Positions 31,275 to 53,380 of a DNA stretch of 64,000 bases are shown in pieces. The notes beneath the pieces are model-generated. The model was not told the DNA's origin, ran no database searches, and saw only the letters and a program-made list of their open reading frames with translations. How positions within the stretch are numbered: position 1 is the stretch's first letter; each line of letters starts with the position of its first letter. Both the position numbers and the translations under genes were made by a program. Source of the DNA: Sanguibacter antarcticus (lineage in GTDB: Bacteria; Actinomycetota; Actinomycetes; Actinomycetales; Cellulomonadaceae); contig NZ_PDJG01000001.1 in assembly GCF_002564005.1 (NCBI RefSeq), forward strand, positions 2,418,001 to 2,482,000, written 5' to 3'.

Positions 31275-32768
31275 ATGTCCACGAGCAGCACCGAGGGTGC
31301 CAGCGCCCGATCGGCGCGCCCCGCCGTCGGCGCCATCGTCGCTGTCGCGATCATCGCGCCCGGTGGGTTCCTCATGATGGACGGCGTCCTCGCGGCCGTC
31401 GTGTTCTTCCTCTCGGCGCTGCTCCCCTCGGTCGCGATCGCCATCACCATGATCGTCCCGTCGCGGCGCCCCGAGGTCACCCGGCCGTGGCGGTGGGCGC
31501 TCGGCGGCTCGCTCTGCCTCGCCCTCGACGCCGCGATCTGGCTCCTGCGCACGGCGGAACCGTCGCTGCCCGAGGGCCTCGCCGTCGTCGCCCAGATCGC
31601 CGTCCTGCTCGGCTACACCGGCCTGCTCGTCGCGACGGTCCTTCTCGTCCTCCCCGCCATGCGCGACGACGGCGGCAAGGCCATCGACTCTGCCATCTTC
31701 GCGACCGGGGCAGCCGTGCTGCTGTGGGCCGGCGTCGTGGACACCGCTCTCACCGATCGCGTCGTGTCGTCTGTCGACCGGTCCGTGGCGCTCGTCGGGC
31801 TGCTCCTCGTGAGCGGCATCGCCGGGGCGATGGGCCGTGCGATCGTCACCTCCCAGCGCGCCCGCTTCACCCTCGGCTGTCTCGCCCTCGCGGCGCTCGC
31901 TGCGATCGTCGCCAACATGGCGCTCCTGGTCAACGTCGACGAGACCACAGGCGTGGAAGCCCCCTGGGTGGGAGCGCTGTGGGTCCTGTCCAACGTGACC
32001 TTCGCCGCCGCGGCCCTCCGCCCGCAGGACCTCACGTTCACGGCGTCGCACCGACCACGAACCCAGCGGCTGAGCTACCCGCACCTCGGTTTCCTGGCCC
32101 TCGCGCTCTCTCTCAATCCTCTCCTCGCGGCCGCCCGAGAGTCTGTCGGGGAAGAAGCGGACCAGGCTCTGCTCACCACCGGGACTCTCGTGCTCGTCCC
32201 GCTCGTCCTCGCCCGGGTGGCCCAGCTCGCGCGCCTCCAGCACCGGACGGAGCAAGAGCTCGCCCACCAGGCGACGCACGACGCGCTCACAGGCCTGCCG
32301 AACCGGCGCGCCGCAGACCAGCACCTCGACCAGACGATCCGCCAGGTCCGCGAAGGGACCCTGCCCGGTGCGCTCCTGTGCTTCCTCGACCTCGACAACT
32401 TCAAGGACGTCAACGACGAGCACGGCCATCACGTCGGCGACCAGCTCCTCGTCGCAGTCGCCGGCCGGCTGCAGGCCGTCGTCCGGGAGCGCGACCTCGT
32501 GGCACGGTTCGGAGGTGACGAGTTCATCCTCATCATCATCGGCGCCCCTGACGTCCTGCGGACCGAGACTGTCGCACGGATCCACCAGGCGCTGTCAGCT
32601 CCCGTCGACCTCGGCTCGACCACGGCCTCGGCTGTAGCGAGCATCGGGACGGCAGCAGTCCGCCGAGGGAACGAGCTCTCGGGCGAACAGCTGACGTCGA
32701 TCGCCGACGCACGCATGTACGCCGAGAAGCGCCGCGCGACGCACGGCATCCCGGTCACGCCCGCCTGA
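31275..32768 (+). CDS. Membrane diguanylate cyclase (GGDEF domain)
   Basis: A 497-residue protein with about eight to nine hydrophobic segments in residues 15-320 and a C-terminal GGDEF domain (about 333-490) that makes c-di-GMP from GTP. The domain start is HDALTGLPNRRAAD, the catalytic motif is RFGGDEFI, and an allosteric I-site R-x-x-D (RERD) lies exactly five residues before GGDEF, so product inhibition is expected. FLDLDNFKDVND supplies the metal/nucleotide Asp. No EAL or HD-GYP partner is in the window. The membrane part may sense a lipid or small hydrophobic signal; that is inference. Confidence 0.93.
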   Translation: MSTSSTEGASARSARPAVGAIVAVAIIAPGGFLMMDGVLAAVVFFLSALLPSVAIAITMIVPSRRPEVTRPWRWALGGSLCLALDAAIWLLRTAEPSLPEGLAVVAQIAVLLGYTGLLVATVLLVLPAMRDDGGKAIDSAIFATGAAVLLWAGVVDTALTDRVVSSVDRSVALVGLLLVSGIAGAMGRAIVTSQRARFTLGCLALAALAAIVANMALLVNVDETTGVEAPWVGALWVLSNVTFAAAALRPQDLTFTASHRPRTQRLSYPHLGFLALALSLNPLLAAARESVGEEADQALLTTGTLVLVPLVLARVAQLARLQHRTEQELAHQATHDALTGLPNRRAADQHLDQTIRQVREGTLPGALLCFLDLDNFKDVNDEHGHHVGDQLLVAVAGRLQAVVRERDLVARFGGDEFILIIIGAPDVLRTETVARIHQALSAPVDLGSTTASAVASIGTAAVRRGNELSGEQLTSIADARMYAEKRRATHGIPVTPA

Positions 32769-43979: not shown

Positions 43980-46121
43980 TCACCGGGACGTCAGCGTGAA
44001 CTCCCGGACCCCGTCGGCCAGCTCGGACGCCACCTGGCCGAGGTCGCTCACCGCGCCGCGGACCTCGCCGACCTGCTGGCTCGTCGCCTCGGACGTCCGT
44101 GCGACGAGAGCGATGTTGTCGGCGATGTCGGTCGAGCTCGTCGCAGCGCTCACGAGGTTCCGCTCGATCTCCGTCGTCGTCATCGCCTGCTGCTCGACGA
44201 CGGCCGCGACCGCCCCCTGCCGCTCGTTGACCTCCGCCATGGCTGCGGCGATCCGTGCGATGCCCGCCGTGACGTCCCCGGCGTCCGCTCGCACGGCGTC
44301 GAGGACCGGCTCGATCGCGTCGATCGCGGTCGCCGTCTGGCGTGCGAGCTCCTTGACCTCGCCGGCCACGACCGCGAAGCCGCTGCCGGCGTTCCCGGCG
44401 CGGGCCGCCTCGATGGTCGCGTTGAGCGCGAGCAGGTTCGTCTGCTCGGCGATCGCGGTGACCGTGCGCAGGACCGCGGCGATCTGCGAGGACGAGTCTC
44501 CGAGCCGCTCCGCGGACTCCGACGTCTCGGTGATAAGTCCCACGGCCCGCACGGCTTCCGTCGCAGCCGACCGGACGTCGTGCCCCACGGACTCGATCGA
44601 CGTCCTCATCTCGGTCATCGCTGCGGTGACGGCCTGCACCTCGGACGAGACGACCGACGCGGAACCGGCGGCCTCGGCCGCCCGCTGCTGCGCGTCGCCC
44701 GCGATGCCCTCGAGAGCACGGCTGGAGTCCCCGAGCCCTCCGGCGGTCGCGTGGAGCGACCCGGCGCTCGTCTCCATCCGTTGCACGGCCGTCCGCATGC
44801 CGTCGACGGCCTCGCGCAGGGCCTCCCCCATGACACCGATCTCGTCTGTGCCTTCCGGGACGACGACGACCGAGAGGTCGCGGTCCGCGACGCGACGCAG
44901 GGCATCGGTCAGCCGGACCAGCCGTCGGGTGATCCGCCCGGAGGTCCACACCACGACCGCGGCGACGAGAGCGGCGACCGCGAGACCGATGAGCATGAGG
45001 TCGCGCGCGAGCGCGCTCGCGCCCTCCTCGAGGTTCGCGGGGACTGCCTCGAGGTCGGAGTCGAAGCCCCAGGCAGCGATGGTCCATCCCCATGCCGGGA
45101 ACGATCCTGCCTCGACGGTCGCGGCCCCGCTGCCGGCCAAGGTCACGCGCGACCGGGCGTGCTCGCCCTGTCCGTCCGCGACCGCGTCGACGATCCCCTG
45201 GACGTACGCGGTGCCGTCAGCGTCGACGGCGTCGAGCGCGGAGTCCCCCTCGACGCTGCCGGGCGGCGGAACGACATAGTCGCCTGCAGCGCTGACGACC
45301 GTGACGTAGCCGGCGCTGCCGATCGCGATCTCGGAGAGGGCCGCGCGCAGGGGCGCGTCGACGTCCGTCTGCGGCAGCCCGACGAACACGGCCCCGATGA
45401 CCTCGCCCGACGCGTCGAGCAACGGACCGTAGCCCGTCACGTACGTCTCGCCGACGACGGTTGCCGTGCCGAAGAAGCTCTCGCCTGCGAGGAGGGACGC
45501 GACGACCGCGTTGGGCGTGCCGTCGGCTCCCGTGGCTCCGATGTAGGTGCCGATGGCGCGCGCACCGTCGGCGGTCGGGACGGTCGTCCCGACACGGAGC
45601 ATGTCGCCGTCGTCGTTCATGCGCTGGAAGACGGTGACGGCCTCGCCGAGGAGCGTGGCGATCTCGTCGACGACGGGCGTGGTCGTCGCGAGGTCGGTGT
45701 TCTGGCCGAGCCAGGTCTCGCCGACGGACAGCCGGGGAAGCGTGACGTCGGTGGCGTCGCCCGTGGTCTGGTTGGTCGCGCGCCACGCGACCGACGAGTC
45801 CAGCACGACGGGGCCGTGCCCGGCGAAGACCTGCTGGGCGACGCGGAGGTCGGACTCGAGCCGGGACGTGACGGTGGCGACCTGCGTCGCGACGAGCGAC
45901 TCCGCCTGCATGACCGTGGTGTCGAGCGACGACTCGTTGAGCGCGCGCACGTCCGCGCTCGCGCCGTCGGCGAGCGACGCGCTCTCGACGGCACCGGCGA
46001 CGGTGAGCAGCACAGCGGTGACGACCACCGAGCCCACCCCCGTGAGGAGGAGCTGTGCACGGAGCCCGAGGCTGCGTCCGGTTCGATGGTTCAGACGGCT
46101 GGCGATGTCCGTGGTCTGCAC
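43980..46121 (-). CDS. Methyl-accepting chemotaxis protein with extracellular Cache-type sensor
   Basis: A 713-residue chemoreceptor. An N-terminal membrane helix (about 22-42) leads into a roughly 300-residue periplasm-side sensor with two Cache-like halves ([40 protein letters not shown]), a second helix (about 370-392), HAMP, and the cytoplasmic signalling coiled coil. The hairpin tip [20 protein letters not shown] and [17 protein letters not shown] are canonical. GTG 46121 has AGGAGG 4 nt upstream, which rules out the longer frame to 46193. There is no C-terminal CheR-docking pentapeptide. A FliA-type promoter candidate lies upstream; no che or fla genes are in the window. Confidence 0.93.
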
Positions 46122-46186
46122 AGTGCCTCCTGGTTCGTTCGCGGGGGATCCGGCGACGATGACGGGGCGCCCCAGGACCGGGACGT

Positions 46187-46213
46187 CATTCACCTATCGG
46201 CGGTAGGTGAATG
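46187..46213. promoter_or_regulatory. 10-bp-arm palindrome in the MCP/Sir2 divergent region
   Basis: CATTCACCTA and TAGGTGAATG, perfect arms separated by 7 bp. It overlaps the FliA-like -10 element, so a bound dimer would occlude that promoter. The binding protein is unknown. Confidence 0.55.
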
Positions 46214-48322: not shown

Positions 48323-51300
48323 TCAACTGCCCGAGCGGGCGATCACACCGTCGGACGTGAAGGGCATCCCGGTCAGCGGGTCCGTACTGCTGACCATGTA
48401 GGTAAAGCTCCCAGAGTCGACGGCCCCCACGCTCGTGAGCACGTCGATCGGCAGACGCACCTGCTCCCCTGCGCCGAGCTCAGCCACCGTGCACGTGACC
48501 TCCTCGCCGGACGGCCTGCACCGCGGGCCGACGGACACCAGGACCAACTTCCTGTCCGGGATCGTCAGCTCGACGGTCATGTCTACGAGGTCGAGCGGGC
48601 TGCCGTTGTTCGCCGAGACGGTGAAGGCGATGATGGGCCCGTAGGCATACAGCTGCACCGGCTCGAGCACGACCGCCGGGACAGCAGGAGCGTCGTCCTG
48701 GTCGAGCGGCCCCGCTGCCGACGCATCCGCAGAGGAGTGCACGACGAGGGTGTCGAGCGCACCCTTCCCGCTGGCAGGGACCGTGAGGCTCAGCGCGAAC
48801 GGACCGGTCGCGCCAGCGGCAGTCGGGAGGAGCCCGGCCGACCGGTAGGTCACCACGCTGGTCCCCCCGGTCGTCGGCAGGGCCGCGCCGTTCGCGAGCA
48901 CCGTGGCAGGGACGCCGCTGCGTCCTGACGCGGTCGCCGCGACCTTGACTGCTCCGTCAGCCGGGAGCAGGTACGTCTTCTCGGCTGACGCAGCGCCGAA
49001 CGGCGGCGGTCCCGACAGGAGCGCGACCGTCGATGCTGGCTGGTCAGGAACGTCGTACACGATCGTCAGCGACCACCGCAGGTCGACCGGCAGCACGGTC
49101 CCCGGCTCCGGCACCACGGTCCACCGGCCGCTCGCGGGGTGCGCCGAGACGAACGACGTGACGTCGCTCGCCGCCCAGTACCCCTGAGCACGTGCGCCCG
49201 GTGCGTCGAGCACGACCGGGGTCCCCACCAGCGGCTCCGTGGCGAGCCCGCCAGCGTCGGTGCGGAGCTCCACGTGGGAGAGTCCGTCGGCAGAGGTGCC
49301 CTGCGCGTCGGAACCGCTCCACACGACCTCCGCGTGGCGGACGATCGCGTCATCCGGGACGCGCACCATGATCGCCTCGCTCGCAGCACCAGAGATCTGA
49401 GCCGTCTGGAGCGAGCCTGCGAGGAGCGCGGTCGCGGACAGCCCTCGTGCGGCGACGGTCAGGTGACTCGCCGTGCCGGACGTGCTGGACGTGCCGGACG
49501 TGCCCGCCGCCGTCCCATGGCCGACGACCGGGACAAGCTCACCGTCGAAGGACGAGTCCGGGGCGACCTGCACCGGCAGGACGAGCGTCGTGGACGCGTC
49601 CCCGGCAAGGTCCGCCAAGCTGCTGCACGACGCGACAGCACGGTCAGAGGCGGAACGGACCGTGCACGACCAGTCCGCGCTAGACCCGGCTGCGAGCGAC
49701 AGCGAACCGTCAGGGGCCCCCCACGTCACACCGCTGTCCACAGGCAGCGGGAGGTCGACGCTCACGTCTTCCGCCGTCTCCTGACCGAGGTTCGACACGT
49801 TCACCGCGAGGTGTCCTGGCCGTCCTGCGACGAGCTCCGCGACAGGGACGACTTCCGCGTCGAGGCGCGCAGGTGCCTGGGCGATCAGTGAGGACATCGT
49901 GATCGCGGCACCGTGGCGCACCCCGCCGACGTAGAGCTGACCGGTGATGGTCACGGACGTCGCCGTGCTCTCCGCGTAGAAGTCGAGCGTCAGGTCGGCC
50001 GACGCGCCGCTCGCGATCTCGGCGATCTCGCACCGGACGGTCGTCAGGCCAGACGTCTCCGGGGTCCCGGCGAGGCAGACCCAGCCCTCGCTCTCGAGCG
50101 CAGGCAGGCGTGGACCGAAGACACCAGAGGTCGCCGAGTCGTCGGCGACGAACGCGAGACCGGCCGGGACGGACAGCTCGAGAGCCACGTCGGTGACGAC
50201 GTCCTGGCCCGAGTTGGTCAGCGCGAGCGTGAGCGTGTTGTTCTGGCGTGCAAAGAACGTGGTCCCGGACCCGAGCGTGAGCCCCATGTCGAACGACACC
50301 GGGGTGGGTGTCGGGTCAGGGTCGACCGGTGCCGGGGTGATCGGGTCGGGGTCAGCTGGGTCTGGGTCTACCGGGTCTGGGGCGACCGGGTCCGGATCGA
50401 CCGGGTCCGGGGCGAGGGGCGAGGCGTCTTCCGGGGTGGTCCCGGTCGGCGTGCCTGACGGAGTCGTCGCGCGCGGGACTGTCGGGGTCCCGCTGTCCAC
50501 GGCGTCGGAGCTGTCTGACGGGCTGGTGTCGTCTGCGGTGTCGTCGGGCGCGAGCGGGACGGCCGCGGGATCCGACGGGTCGTCCGGCGGCGAGAGCGCG
50601 TCTGCGTCGGCCGGGTCGTCGCTGCTGGCGTCGCCGTCCTGCGTCTCGGTGGTGGCGCCGCTCGCGACAGGGCCTGACGGCGGGGCGTCGTCCCCGCCGA
50701 ACACCCCGAGGAGAGCCGCCGCCGCGAGGCCCGCGGCCACGACGACGACCGCTGCGATCCCGACCACGAGCGCGGGAACCGCTGCCGCCGCAGCGGCGAG
50801 CCCTCCCGCGGCAGCTCCGCCTGCGCTCCCGGCAGCGGCTCCGCCTGCACCGGCGGACGCACCGCCCGCGGACCCTCCGGACGCACCAGCAGCCGACCCA
50901 CCAGGTGCCGCGGCACCTGAGGCAGCAGCACCCGAGGTCGCGGCGCCGGACAGTCCGGTGGCAGCGAGGCCGGTGGCGGTCGCGGTCCCTGCCACGGCAC
51001 CCCACGTGGGCAGCGCGGTCCCGACGAGGCCTGCACCAGCGAGGCCGAGGACCAACGGAGCGATGACCGTACGCATCCCGTGCGAGACGTCGCCGAGCTC
51101 GAGGACGAGCGCGCGGCACTCGCCGCAGTCGTCGAGGTGACGCTCCACGACCGCTGTCTCGCGCTTGGCGAGCCCGCCCCGGACGTACGACCCGAGGAGG
51201 CCGTTGGCCTTCTGGCACTCGTCTGCGGGTGTGCTCGACAGGTGCTGCTGGAGGTATGCCTCGCGCAGCCCCTCACGCGCCCTGTACGCGAGAGCCGCTG

Positions 51301-51817
51301 CACCGTTGGCGGTCAGTCCGAGGATGGGCGCGATGGCTGCCGGGGCGAGCCCTTCGACCTCGGAGTACCAGAGGACGGACTGCCACCGCTCGGGGAGGGA
51401 GCGGAACGCTTCGGCGACCGTCGTGCGCTCGAATCCCTGGAGGGCGGGCTCTTCGGTCGAGGCCAGCGGGCCGAAGGCCGACTCGAAGGCCTCCGTGTCG
51501 TCCGTCGGCTGGGTCCGGCGGGCTCCGTTGATCATCTCGAACGCGCGCCGACGCACCACGGTGAACAGGTAGGCACGGAAGGCGATGTCTGGGCCGCCGC
51601 CGCCGCTGACGATGACGAGGACCTTGGTGAACGCGTCCGCCACGGCGTCGTCGACCTCGCTCGGTGAGCGCAGGTACTGCCCAGCGACCCGGCACGCCGC
51701 TGCCGCGTGCCGCTGGTAGAGCGCCCCGAAGGCCTCGTTGTCACCGAGACGAACAGCCGTGATGAGCTCGGCATCCGAGGAGCCTGCGCCCCATGCTGCC
51801 CCGTGCTCGTCCGTCAC
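48323..51817 (-). CDS. ECF sigma factor fused to zinc finger, membrane helix and large DUF11-type ectodomain
   Basis: A 1164-residue fusion. Residues 14-100 form sigma region 2 (DNEAFGALYQRHAAAA, VDDAVADAFTKVL) and 135-192 region 4 (SLPERWQSVLWYSEVEGL, with an HTH). An anti-sigma-like zinc finger follows with C201, H227, C231 and C234 (RHLDDCGECRALV). After an Ala/Gly/Ser-rich stretch comes a membrane helix (about 350-373). Roughly 790 extracellular residues follow: an acidic Pro-Asp repeat linker, at least three DUF11-like beta domains, and a middle beta domain. The sigma part is thus tethered to the membrane with its own sensor. GTG 51817 was chosen; in-frame starts extend to 51925. Release probably needs proteolysis or conformational change, which is inference. 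Confidence 0.88.
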   Translation of the reverse strand: MTDEHGAAWGAGSSDAELITAVRLGDNEAFGALYQRHAAAACRVAGQYLRSPSEVDDAVADAFTKVLVIVSGGGGPDIAFRAYLFTVVRRRAFEMINGARRTQPTDDTEAFESAFGPLASTEEPALQGFERTTVAEAFRSLPERWQSVLWYSEVEGLAPAAIAPILGLTANGAAALAYRAREGLREAYLQQHLSSTPADECQKANGLLGSYVRGGLAKRETAVVERHLDDCGECRALVLELGDVSHGMRTVIAPLVLGLAGAGLVGTALPTWGAVAGTATATGLAATGLSGAATSGAAASGAAAPGGSAAGASGGSAGGASAGAGGAAAGSAGGAAAGGLAAAAAAVPALVVGIAAVVVVAAGLAAAALLGVFGGDDAPPSGPVASGATTETQDGDASSDDPADADALSPPDDPSDPAAVPLAPDDTADDTSPSDSSDAVDSGTPTVPRATTPSGTPTGTTPEDASPLAPDPVDPDPVAPDPVDPDPADPDPITPAPVDPDPTPTPVSFDMGLTLGSGTTFFARQNNTLTLALTNSGQDVVTDVALELSVPAGLAFVADDSATSGVFGPRLPALESEGWVCLAGTPETSGLTTVRCEIAEIASGASADLTLDFYAESTATSVTITGQLYVGGVRHGAAITMSSLIAQAPARLDAEVVPVAELVAGRPGHLAVNVSNLGQETAEDVSVDLPLPVDSGVTWGAPDGSLSLAAGSSADWSCTVRSASDRAVASCSSLADLAGDASTTLVLPVQVAPDSSFDGELVPVVGHGTAAGTSGTSSTSGTASHLTVAARGLSATALLAGSLQTAQISGAASEAIMVRVPDDAIVRHAEVVWSGSDAQGTSADGLSHVELRTDAGGLATEPLVGTPVVLDAPGARAQGYWAASDVTSFVSAHPASGRWTVVPEPGTVLPVDLRWSLTIVYDVPDQPASTVALLSGPPPFGAASAEKTYLLPADGAVKVAATASGRSGVPATVLANGAALPTTGGTSVVTYRSAGLLPTAAGATGPFALSLTVPASGKGALDTLVVHSSADASAAGPLDQDDAPAVPAVVLEPVQLYAYGPIIAFTVSANNGSPLDLVDMTVELTIPDRKLVLVSVGPRCRPSGEEVTCTVAELGAGEQVRLPIDVLTSVGAVDSGSFTYMVSSTDPLTGMPFTSDGVIARSGS
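50300..50412 (-). repeat. Tandem repeat coding the Pro-Asp linker of the sigma fusion
   Basis: Degenerate repeats of ACCGGGTCTGG / ACCGGGTCCGG on the plus strand encode alternating DPVDPDPVAPDPVDPDPADP in the minus-strand protein, just outside the membrane. Such repeats are prone to length change and set the reach of the ectodomain across the wall. Confidence 0.7.
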
Positions 51818-52010
51818 CTTGCCCGCTCTCGACGCTCGCTCCACGACCCGATCAGGTCCTTTGTGCCAGCGCCCCGCACACGCCCTGTCGAATTCGGCAG
51901 GACGTACGGTTGGTGCCGTTATCACTCAGGATAAGGGGCGATGGGCGAAAGTAAGAAAGTCCTCACGCAAAAACGCGTCATGATCGACCTCACGAGAACT
52001 CTCACAGAGT

Positions 52011-52778
52011 GTGGAGATCCTCGTTCAGGGCGCTGTGCCGCCCACTGGCGCGCTGCGCGAGCAGTGGCGTGAGGCGAGCCTCCAGACTGCCTGGCTCCAC
52101 GAGGACGACTGGTACCACCCCGCGGTCGACGCGGTCGTCGAGGCCCTCGCTGACGGGACCCCGACGCTCCGTGCGTGCGAGCGGCTCGGTCTCGCACGTG
52201 CCTCCAGCGGGTGCGGGATCGGCGAGACCATCGACGACCTCATGTGCCTGCTCGGCTCAGCATCAGCCTCGGACGTCGGTGCTGCGCTGCGCGCGCTCTG
52301 CAGCGGGTGGGCGGACGGACAGGTTCCGCCACCCAGCGTCGACGGCTGCACGGATCCCGAGACGGGGTTGCGTACGGCCGACTATCTCGTAGCTCGCGTC
52401 GCGGAGCTGTATGGCTCGACAGGTGATCTCCCGGCCGACCCTGGCACGTCCCACGCGCTCATCGTCGTCGACGTCAGCCTGGACCGCGTCTCACCGTGGG
52501 AACGGATGGCTCGCTCGGCAAGCATGGGACGCACGCTCGTCGACGCGTTCGGTCCGAGCCACCCGATGGCTCCTCTCGGCGGTGGCGTCTTCGTGGTCCT
52601 CGTCGAGCGCGACGGCACTGTGCTCACGACGCTCGACGAGGTCCGGCTCCTCATCGAGCAGGACTCCGCCGACCTCGGGGTGTCGACGATCGTCCGCCGG
52701 CCACCCCGCCTCTGGATCGAGCACCTGCCCTCGACCTCGCGAGCGGCCGTGCACCTGCTCCAGAGGCTCGCCCGCTGA
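52011..52778 (+). CDS. Protein with degenerate GGDEF-like C-terminal domain
   Basis: A 255-residue protein divergent from the sigma-fusion gene. The N-terminal half (1-108) is helical, with ALREQWREASLQTAWLHEDD. The C-terminal half mimics a diguanylate cyclase fold: DPETGLRTADYLVARVAELY resembles the 'D-x-LTGL-x-N-R' opening, HALIVVDVS the first strand, and GGGVFVVLVERDG occupies the place of the GGDEF strand, without the catalytic residues. It is therefore probably a regulator and not an enzyme. GTG 52011 is the start; there is no strong ribosome site. The assignment is by visual pattern only. Confidence 0.5.
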   Translation: MEILVQGAVPPTGALREQWREASLQTAWLHEDDWYHPAVDAVVEALADGTPTLRACERLGLARASSGCGIGETIDDLMCLLGSASASDVGAALRALCSGWADGQVPPPSVDGCTDPETGLRTADYLVARVAELYGSTGDLPADPGTSHALIVVDVSLDRVSPWERMARSASMGRTLVDAFGPSHPMAPLGGGVFVVLVERDGTVLTTLDEVRLLIEQDSADLGVSTIVRRPPRLWIEHLPSTSRAAVHLLQRLAR

Positions 52779-52857: not shown

Positions 52858-53163
52858 TCAGCGCGGGGTGTAGGTGAGGCAGTCCGCGAGCTCGTCCATC
52901 GAGGAGCCTGCTCCGATGCGGATCGAGTCCGCATGACACTCGAGCGACTCGTTGTGCGCACATTCTCCGCGCTGGCACGCGCCGACCTGCGCGACGACCT
53001 TGTCGAGCCCGCCCTTGACCGACAACGGAATGAAGGTGGCGCACTCTGCTGCGGAGCCGTGCCCACCGACCGTGACGGCGCCAGCATGGCACCCGTCGTG
53101 GTTGTATCCGCAGGTGGAGGCGGTGCAGTCGACGACGTGCGGGAGATCGAGGAGCGAGCTCAT
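52858..53163 (-). CDS. DUF1540 cysteine-rich protein
   Basis: A 101-residue protein with two copies of the DUF1540 pattern. The first has C-x4-C-x-Y-N-x3-C (DCTASTCGYNHDGCHAGAV) and the second ACQRGECAHNESLECHADSI, each followed by a strand and a final Cys (CATF, CLTY). The eight or so cysteines suggest a metal-binding protein. ATG 53163 is preceded by GGAGGA with 5-nt spacing; the adjacent ATG at 53166 is too close to the ribosome site. Function is unknown. Confidence 0.85.
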   Translation of the reverse strand: MSSLLDLPHVVDCTASTCGYNHDGCHAGAVTVGGHGSAAECATFIPLSVKGGLDKVVAQVGACQRGECAHNESLECHADSIRIGAGSSMDELADCLTYTPR

Positions 53164-53380
53164 CATTCCTCCAGGGAATGTGTCACGGGAGGTGCGCGAC
53201 GGTTCCGTGCCCACCTTTGGGTCGTTCCCACGATAAACCTGCCCAGCATTCTTGTATAGACAGGAAAGGCTCACCACAAAAGACCTGCGAGCACGAAACA
53301 ACGAGGCCTGCAAAGAGATTTCGACGGACAGGGCGCGGGTATCCGCTGCACGACGTGCGACCAGGCACTACGGTCGAGGC

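Follow-up and report, generated by a model that had tools for sequence, protein, structure and literature searches.

An ECF sigma factor fused to a zinc-finger anti-sigma-like domain is linked to a catalytically dead GGDEF protein

Introduction

Groups ECF48, ECF52, and ECF53 comprise ECF sigma factors that carry a zinc-finger anti-sigma part and one or two membrane helices in the same chain, and their release by proteolysis has already been proposed, according to the available parts of the papers concerned (PMC8999054, PMC5826349). In the literature compared here, the best studied actinobacterial example is SCO4117 of Streptomyces coelicolor (ECF52). In the available part of its description it consists of an ECF sigma factor, a pfam13490 finger, a membrane part, a proline-rich region, and a C-terminal domain with a carbohydrate-binding module; it has been proposed to regulate its own gene and to be freed by proteolysis or by a change of conformation (PMC5826349). 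A membrane-bound anti-sigma part is also fused to sigma in IutY of Pseudomonas putida (ECF243), where sigma is released via cleavage by Prc and RseP; IutY differs in belonging to Gram-negative cell-surface signaling for aerobactin, and the accessible part of that paper mentions no GGDEF partner (PMC8999054).

Here we describe a fused ECF factor gene from Sanguibacter antarcticus, contained in the 64,000-nucleotide stretch of DNA that was analyzed (the window). Its product resembles SCO4117 in the kinds of parts that it contains, with DUF11 repeats in place of the carbohydrate-binding module. It shares with ECF48 and ECF53 the C-terminal zinc-finger anti-sigma fusion and the membrane helices, but approximately 970 residues follow sigma region 4, whereas extensions of up to 400 residues are given for those groups in the part of the source available (PMC8999054). 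The physical coupling of a sigma factor, an anti-sigma-like finger, and a large C-terminal part, which the original prediction had emphasized, is real, but the idea is not new, the three ECF groups having been published. What appears to be new is the surroundings of the gene, namely a near-constant neighbor, here called W, and DNA hints at target genes. Neither a GGDEF protein as partner of such fusions nor the promoter-like motif GCGTCAT reported below was found described in the open-licence literature, which is weak evidence of absence, as the large ECF classification papers lie outside that scope.

Results

The fused sigma factor gene lies on the minus strand at 48323..51817, in agreement with the coordinates first assigned to it. 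The reverse complement of 48323–51925 is a single 1200-codon frame with no inner stops, the longest frame beginning with a GTG at 51925; the plus-strand frame over 48323..51817 is interrupted by stops. Because the database record of the protein has 1164 amino acids and many relatives start near residue 37 of the 1200-codon frame, the GTG at 51817 was preferred as the start codon. Residues 40–300 gave 1305 protein matches at E ≤ 0.001 (8000 candidates scored), and long open frames of the same type were found again in independent assemblies; a sequencing error is therefore very unlikely. The recurrence of these frames also rules out a chance frame, and an error or stop between the sigma part and the ectodomain, the danger attached to the original prediction, was not upheld. 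Sigma regions 2 and 4, the finger, the hydrophobic segments, the Pro/Asp linker, and the DUF11 repeats all stand in one uninterrupted frame, and the fusion is real. This architecture, though striking in raw sequence, is common in the host family.

The HMM search found the predicted Sigma70_r2 (E = 1.2e-7), zf-HC2 (E = 6.6e-8), and DUF11 (E = 1.1e-12, in three stretches of the C-terminal part) domains with Pfam models. Sigma region 2 occupies 51506..51784 (minus strand; residues 48–140 of the 1200-codon frame) and sigma region 4 occupies 51236..51424 (minus strand; residues 168–230 of the same frame). Region 4 scored 18.8 bits with Sigma70_r4_2, under the cut-off of 25.7; despite this score it is conserved and matched by structure, and the NCBIfam model sigma70-ECF, spanning both regions, scored 58.8 bits (cut-off 42.9). 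The protein thus has the ECF composition of sigma2 and sigma4 without sigma3. In a 63-sequence alignment, the region 4 residues L141 P142 E143 R144 W145 and Y178 R179 A180 R181 E182 were invariant, which excludes the loss of DNA-binding region 4 across homologues on which the earlier reading might have foundered.

The zinc-finger anti-sigma-like domain, C-x25-H-x3-C-x2-C, lies at 51074..51226 (minus strand; residues 234–284). Its ligands had been correctly identified: C201, C231, and C234 were invariant and H227 nearly so in the same alignment. H227, C231, and C234, plus C201, constitute the Hx3Cx2C signature of the class I zinc-binding anti-sigma domain (PMC7406223), and the pattern was present in 119 members of a set of 120 listed proteins that includes the window's own record. 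We infer that the finger inhibits sigma in cis. In the AlphaFold model, with a pTM of 0.36, the finger is not docked onto sigma2 and sigma4, and the placement of the domains is unreliable.

All of the remaining parts are on the minus strand. In the AlphaFold model, hydrophobic segment 1 (51008..51073; residues 285–306) prolongs the last helix of the finger. It is followed by an uncharged linker rich in Ala, Gly, and Ser (50777..51007; residues 307–383), by hydrophobic segment 2 (50696..50776; residues 384–410), most likely a membrane helix judging from hydropathy and AlphaFold, by an acidic Pro/Asp linker (50282..50695; residues 411–548), and by the DUF11-containing C-terminal part with its cysteine pairs (48326..50281; residues 549–1200), which is probably outside. 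When hydrophobic segments were counted in the 260 residues after Hx3Cx2C at a mean hydropathy of 1.6, at least two were present in 115 of the 119 homologues with the pattern and one in the other 4. The description of the protein as having one membrane helix is consequently unsafe, and the topology is ambiguous because two hydrophobic segments, not one, are conserved. A sugar or adhesion signal, as once suggested, is unsupported: conservation within the protein is lowest in the C-terminal part, and to our knowledge DUF11 has no known function.

W (52011..52778, plus strand) is a protein of 255 amino acids whose N-terminal part is helical and whose GGDEF domain is catalytically dead, as judged by fold and active-site columns. 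The GGDEF fold is present and the GG(D/E)EF motif is not; none of 99 aligned rows (1 gapped) had Glu at the catalytic Glu position, which excludes W as an active diguanylate cyclase. The linkage of W to sigma is well supported. Among 121 host-family genomes, 102 had both genes, 18 had neither, 1 (G099) had sigma only, and none had W only; in all 101 other copies the two are divergent neighbors. Class-wide, 34 of 36 W matches flank a fused sigma of the same kind, in two orientations. There was no match to W in the Streptomyces-like genus and family f5, though fused sigmas exist there, and the adjoining W gene is a difference between the window sigma and SCO4117.

A promoter-like motif, GCGTCAT-N17-CTCTC, was found at 51975..52003 (plus strand), 7 bases upstream of the W start codon. 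The search for a shared promoter motif, an idea already present in the original prediction, was productive: GCGTCAT-N17-[GC]TCTC occurs before W, before a small LuxR-type gene, and before some fused-sigma paralogues. It differs from the SCO4117 motif, given as 'CSGYN-17bps-SRHA' in the available part of the source (PMC5826349). The strict motif has three matches in the host's own genome, at W, at the LuxR-type gene, and within a LacI-like coding frame, the last being probably due to chance. Across 61 genomes it was present at 30 of 51 W genes, and 11 of 19 W upstream regions outside the host family's main locus passed a shuffle test. Outside W promoters there were 140 strict matches, about 120 of which were retrieved, and many motif matches fall within coding frames. 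At four Streptomyces-like sigma loci (L117–L120) no relaxed sense-strand motif was found; L120 had one antisense match.

The ATG within GCGTCATG opens a frame toward W in several genomes, as read by eye. Conservation of the motif as coding sequence is disfavored, and conservation as DNA preferred, because the base following GCGTCAT is not G in other genomes and the ATG in the window is out of frame with W.

Discussion

The reading that we favor, with a probability of about 0.5, is that the fused protein is a membrane-bound, self-inhibited ECF sigma factor that is tuned by a dead GGDEF partner, W, and also transcribes it. Sigma2 and sigma4 would be kept off RNA polymerase by the zinc finger of the same chain, with the finger anchored in the membrane and the DUF11 part most likely outside. 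A cue from outside or from the cytoplasm would free the sigma part, presumably by proteolysis or rearrangement; M50 proteases occur at two places in the genome, but the M50 family was matched in all 14 control genomes as well. The freed sigma may then read GCGTCAT-N17-[GC]TCTC promoters, the predicted core targets being the divergent W and the small LuxR-type regulator, a single-domain protein encoded away from this locus, and the motif before some fused-sigma genes would allow autoregulation in relatives. Weighing against this reading are the AlphaFold placement of the finger, the ambiguous topology, the fused sigmas that have no W, the W genes that lack the strict motif, the motif matches in coding frames, and the sigma-defective or sigma-lacking genomes with the motif or a near match, described below.

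From its place in the cytoplasm, W would probably exert feedback on the sigma/anti-sigma module, through a putative direct contact with sigma. The model here is RmdB of Streptomyces, whose GGDEF domain binds sigma-WhiG/RsiG directly, its cyclase motif being dispensable; as far as the available part of that paper goes, RsiG exists as a protein of its own and the EAL domain of RmdB is active, whereas W has no EAL and is linked to the sigma gene (PMC13232838). More broadly, and with somewhat less than an even chance of being right, the pair may be a conserved actinomycete two-gene switch, in which a tethered, self-inhibited ECF sigma receives its inputs from a fast-varying outside domain and from a dead GGDEF protein in the cytoplasm that binds the sigma/finger module, and serves a compact regulon defined by the motif.

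W might instead lie solely on the output side, as an effector or a reader of nucleotides with a dead GGDEF domain that is made under active sigma and does not act back on it. The motif stands directly before W, as it does before unrelated genes, and with ten strong GGDEF matches in the host genome c-di-GMP may be there to read. However, an ordinary target is not expected to lie beside sigma in both orientations across families, or to be lost along with it, and the LuxR-type target shows neither property, being unlinked to sigma and retained when sigma is lost. We consider a role as output only rather unlikely.

The motif could also belong to some other sigma factor, whether a soluble ECF or a paralogous fusion, or be the site of a different regulator, with the fused sigma no more than a neighbor of W. 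A short ECF-type gene adjoins W at 8 of 9 W paralogue loci, and the strict motif before the LuxR-type gene is retained by two sigma-defective genomes: G017, whose sigma gene is shortened, and G053, in which upp is missing too. Against this, the motif stands before fused-sigma genes themselves, and its two blocks with a fixed 17-base spacer resemble a −35/−10 pair. In addition, GCGTCAT at the LuxR-type gene tracks the presence of the fused sigma, being found in all 15 of the sigma-bearing genomes fetched versus 0 of 5 sigma-lacking ones; seven sigma-bearing members of the 61 genomes (G001, G006, G014, G031, G044, G048, and G054) lie outside the set covered at this gene. One of the five sigma-lacking genomes, G015, has a near match, GCGTAAT, with a score of 12.0, above its shuffles, and all five still hold more distant sigma relatives. 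We judge a different reader to be distinctly unlikely and take the fused sigma as the candidate reader.

If both hydrophobic segments spanned the membrane, the DUF11 part would be cytoplasmic and the protein no surface sensor. The recurrence of two segments in the homologues fits this arrangement, as does the better conservation of segment 1, directly after the finger, relative to segment 2. It is nevertheless improbable: among the 137 residues of the linker that follows segment 2 there are 30 Asp, 33 Pro, and 1 Arg but no Lys, cysteine pairs are conserved in the C-terminal part, and relatives terminate in NPCBM, Ig-like, or ricin-type lectin domains.

Like ECF52 members, the fused protein has a zinc finger, a membrane part, and a proline-rich extension after the sigma domain; strict membership is not claimed because the carbohydrate-binding module, a C-terminal NPCBM in that group, was not found by Pfam, which reported NPCBM_assoc (NEW3; E = 3e-7) and weak CARDB besides DUF11. 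That it is a plain ECF52-type protein working as proposed for SCO4117, with W incidental, is very doubtful: the order of parts is the same, identity to Streptomyces-like relatives is 40–43% over sigma and finger, and three scanned relatives of that kind end in NPCBM, but the window protein has no such domain by Pfam, and W accompanies sigma too regularly for the linkage to be incidental.

The linked W is a candidate partner for binding, and the predicted promoters could serve as defined reporters. Should W act on the sigma module, the idea that inactive GGDEF domains regulate sigma/anti-sigma pairs would no longer be confined to WhiG but would take in ECF factors as well, and it would point to a way in which a single protein combines signals from outside and inside the cell. 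W and the promoter-like motif, both missed in the first reading of the window, are more telling about function than the C-terminal part.

Architecture of the Fused Sigma Factor

The original prediction placed sigma regions 2 and 4, a finger, a membrane helix, and DUF11 repeats in one uninterrupted chain at 48323..51817, and this observation holds except for the strand and the helix count. The coordinates were correct; the gene lies on the minus strand of a genome consisting of a single contig of 3,521,501 bases, where the reverse complement of 48323–51925 forms a single 1200-codon open frame. The start at 51817, giving 1164 aa, agrees with the database record and many relatives. Pfam and NCBIfam detected sigma2, a weak but conserved sigma4, a zf-HC2 finger, three stretches of DUF11, and an NPCBM-associated domain; the four zinc ligands that had been named are present at the predicted residues and conserved. 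The protein is almost certainly a fused ECF factor.

Residues 40–300 were matched by 1305 proteins among 8000 scored candidates, and homologue lengths ranged from 732 to 1942 aa among the 120 matches listed. Median identity to 18 homologues, hand-picked out of those 120, was 62% for sigma2, 76% for sigma4, 75% for the finger, 61% for hydrophobic segment 1, 41% for segment 2, and 27% for the C-terminal part. The regulator part is conserved and the C-terminal part variable.

This architecture is already published and is common in the host's family. The SCO4117/ECF52 chain consists of an ECF sigma, a pfam13490 finger, a membrane part, a proline-rich region, and a carbohydrate-binding module, and proteolytic release of SCO4117 was proposed from truncation and knockout experiments (PMC5826349). 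ECF48, ECF52, and ECF53 are expected to act likewise, with IutY named as the sole case with experimental characterization (PMC8999054). A class-wide search found relatives of mostly 634–783 aa in genus f25/g54 (genomes of 5.8–11 Mb), which we infer to be Streptomyces. NPCBM stood at the C-terminal end in all three relatives scanned there, and two loci that were inspected had a TetR-like gene, recognised by eye, directly upstream, resembling atrA beside SCO4117. Sigma plus finger identity of the window protein to these relatives was 40–43% (five loci). Because the order of parts is that of ECF52 proteins such as SCO4117, and because of these Streptomyces-like relatives, the window's protein represents a known type, of which it is a variant, with DUF11 where SCO4117 has NPCBM.

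Membrane Topology

Instead of the single membrane helix predicted, the protein has two hydrophobic segments, 286–306 and about 384–410, separated by an uncharged Ala/Gly/Ser-rich linker. Among 119 proteins with the finger pattern, 115 have at least two such segments within 260 residues after the finger (three or four in 58 of them), and four have one. An even number of membrane crossings would put the large C-terminal part inside. A location outside is favoured by the linker past segment 2, whose 137 residues include 30 Asp, 33 Pro, one Arg, and zero Lys, by nearly invariant cysteine pairs in the C-terminal part, and by the NPCBM, Ig-like, or ricin-type lectin domains at the C-terminal ends of relatives. 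In the AlphaFold model the helix that closes the finger runs on into segment 1, and segment 2 stands as a helix of its own; a single crossing, via segment 2, seems most likely.

A Dead-GGDEF Partner

Divergent from the fused sigma lies the gene for W (52011–52778, + strand), a 255-aa protein with a GGDEF fold that lacks the catalytic motif. The Pfam scan of the window's W gave zero matches, and GGDEF_2 matched 2 of 21 W family members; the closest homologue is from Sanguibacter sp. One of the genome's ten strong GGDEF matches lies elsewhere in the window, at 32271–32735 (+).

Of 121 family genomes, which as relatives are not independent samples, 102 carried W together with a close fused sigma (E below 1e-75) and 18 carried neither; one (G099) had the sigma only, and none had W only. 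W was the divergent neighbour in all 101 other W-bearing genomes. The 18 joint absences were spread over eight genera, some of these genomes being incomplete, and upp, which flanks the locus on the far side, was kept in 14 of the 15 W-less genomes searched for it. In the window W adjoins a gene (52858–53313, −) with two stretches matching DUF1540; most of the 20 family loci have this gene between hspR and W.

When 246 genomes of the class were searched with a W profile, 37 gave matches; with the own genome set aside, 34 of 36 adjoined a sigma of this type, 16 divergently and 18 upstream on the same strand, and the other two had E values of 1.2e-4 and 7.8e-4. Frozen gene order alone could hardly produce a pairing that occurs in both orientations. 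The same search detected no W in the Streptomyces-like genus or in family f5, both of which carry fused sigmas. We put the probability of a functional link between W and the sigma at roughly 0.9.

Second W copies were found near fused paralogues at nine loci: the fused sigma adjoined W at six (one cut by a contig end), was about 10 kb off at two, and was missing from one. A short ECF-type gene adjoins W at eight (L102, L103, L104, L105, L107, L108, L109, and L110), and at L109 and L110 it occupies the position divergent to W, with the fused sigma about 10 kb off. In genome G017 the orthologue at the same locus (L123:4765–5505) is shortened to 246 aa, keeping sigma2, sigma4, and the finger; its membrane and C-terminal parts are lost and W is gone.

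A Promoter-like Motif

GCGTCAT-N17-CTCTC, at 51975–52003 (+), ends seven bases upstream of the W start codon, and GCGTCA[TG] with the same spacer lies upstream of W at 20 of 21 loci (the window plus 20 loci of the family). In its strict form, GCGTCAT-N17-[GC]TCTC, the motif had 140 matches in 61 family genomes versus 12 for the reversed pattern, and occurred at 30 of 51 W genes there. Among 120 annotated loci (40 + 80), 36 had the motif upstream of a small LuxR/GerE-type gene, counted by residue pattern, own genome included (C1:2926710). It also precedes related genes with a partial EAL domain, another c-di-GMP-type module, at four loci (L156, L157, L158, and L195; two scanned), and a cluster of related genes at L185, L206, L208, and L211, the one scanned having HATPase_c_2, the family of RsbW-type anti-sigma kinases. 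Strict matches stand about 80–120 bp ahead of a fused-sigma paralogue match in G049, G043, G059, and G011, and relaxed ones 64–71 bp ahead of the sigma frame in two of six f5 loci. Many other matches fall inside coding frames and look like chance. Away from the family's main locus the motif is weaker, with 11 of the 19 regions upstream of W (nine paralogue, ten class loci) passing a shuffle test.

The LuxR-type gene is retained in several genomes without a close sigma. GCGTCAT with the 17-base spacer was present at this gene in 15 of 15 sigma-bearing genomes whose best copy lacks the strict form, versus none of five sigma-lacking genomes, a comparison that left out seven sigma-bearing genomes. 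G015, one of the sigma-lacking genomes, had GCGTAAT, a near match that outscored its own shuffles. Outside this comparison, two sigma-defective genomes kept the strict motif: G017, upstream of the LuxR-type gene, and G053, which lacks upp too, so that its assembly may miss the sigma locus. The pattern supports reading by the fused sigma or a close paralogue, and the motif is probably read by this type of sigma.

Proposed Mechanism

The most likely mechanism is that a self-inhibited membrane sigma factor would, on release, activate W and a small gene set, and that W would feed back on the sigma module. The feedback step is suggested by RmdB, whose GGDEF domain is reported to bind sigma-WhiG and displace RsiG, its GGDEF motif being dispensable (PMC13232838). 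We infer the signal from outside, the step that frees the sigma, and the binding of W; release could be proteolytic, at slightly under even odds, and direct binding by W, by analogy with RmdB, is a tentative proposal. In the open-licence literature searched, which did not list the large ECF classification papers, neither a dead-GGDEF partner of fused ECF factors nor such a motif came up. With its conserved partner and predicted promoter, the locus is of greater interest than the architecture by itself.

Near the fused sigma, at 43980–46193 (−), lies a gene for a methyl-accepting chemotaxis protein with a Cache_3–Cache_2 sensor domain.
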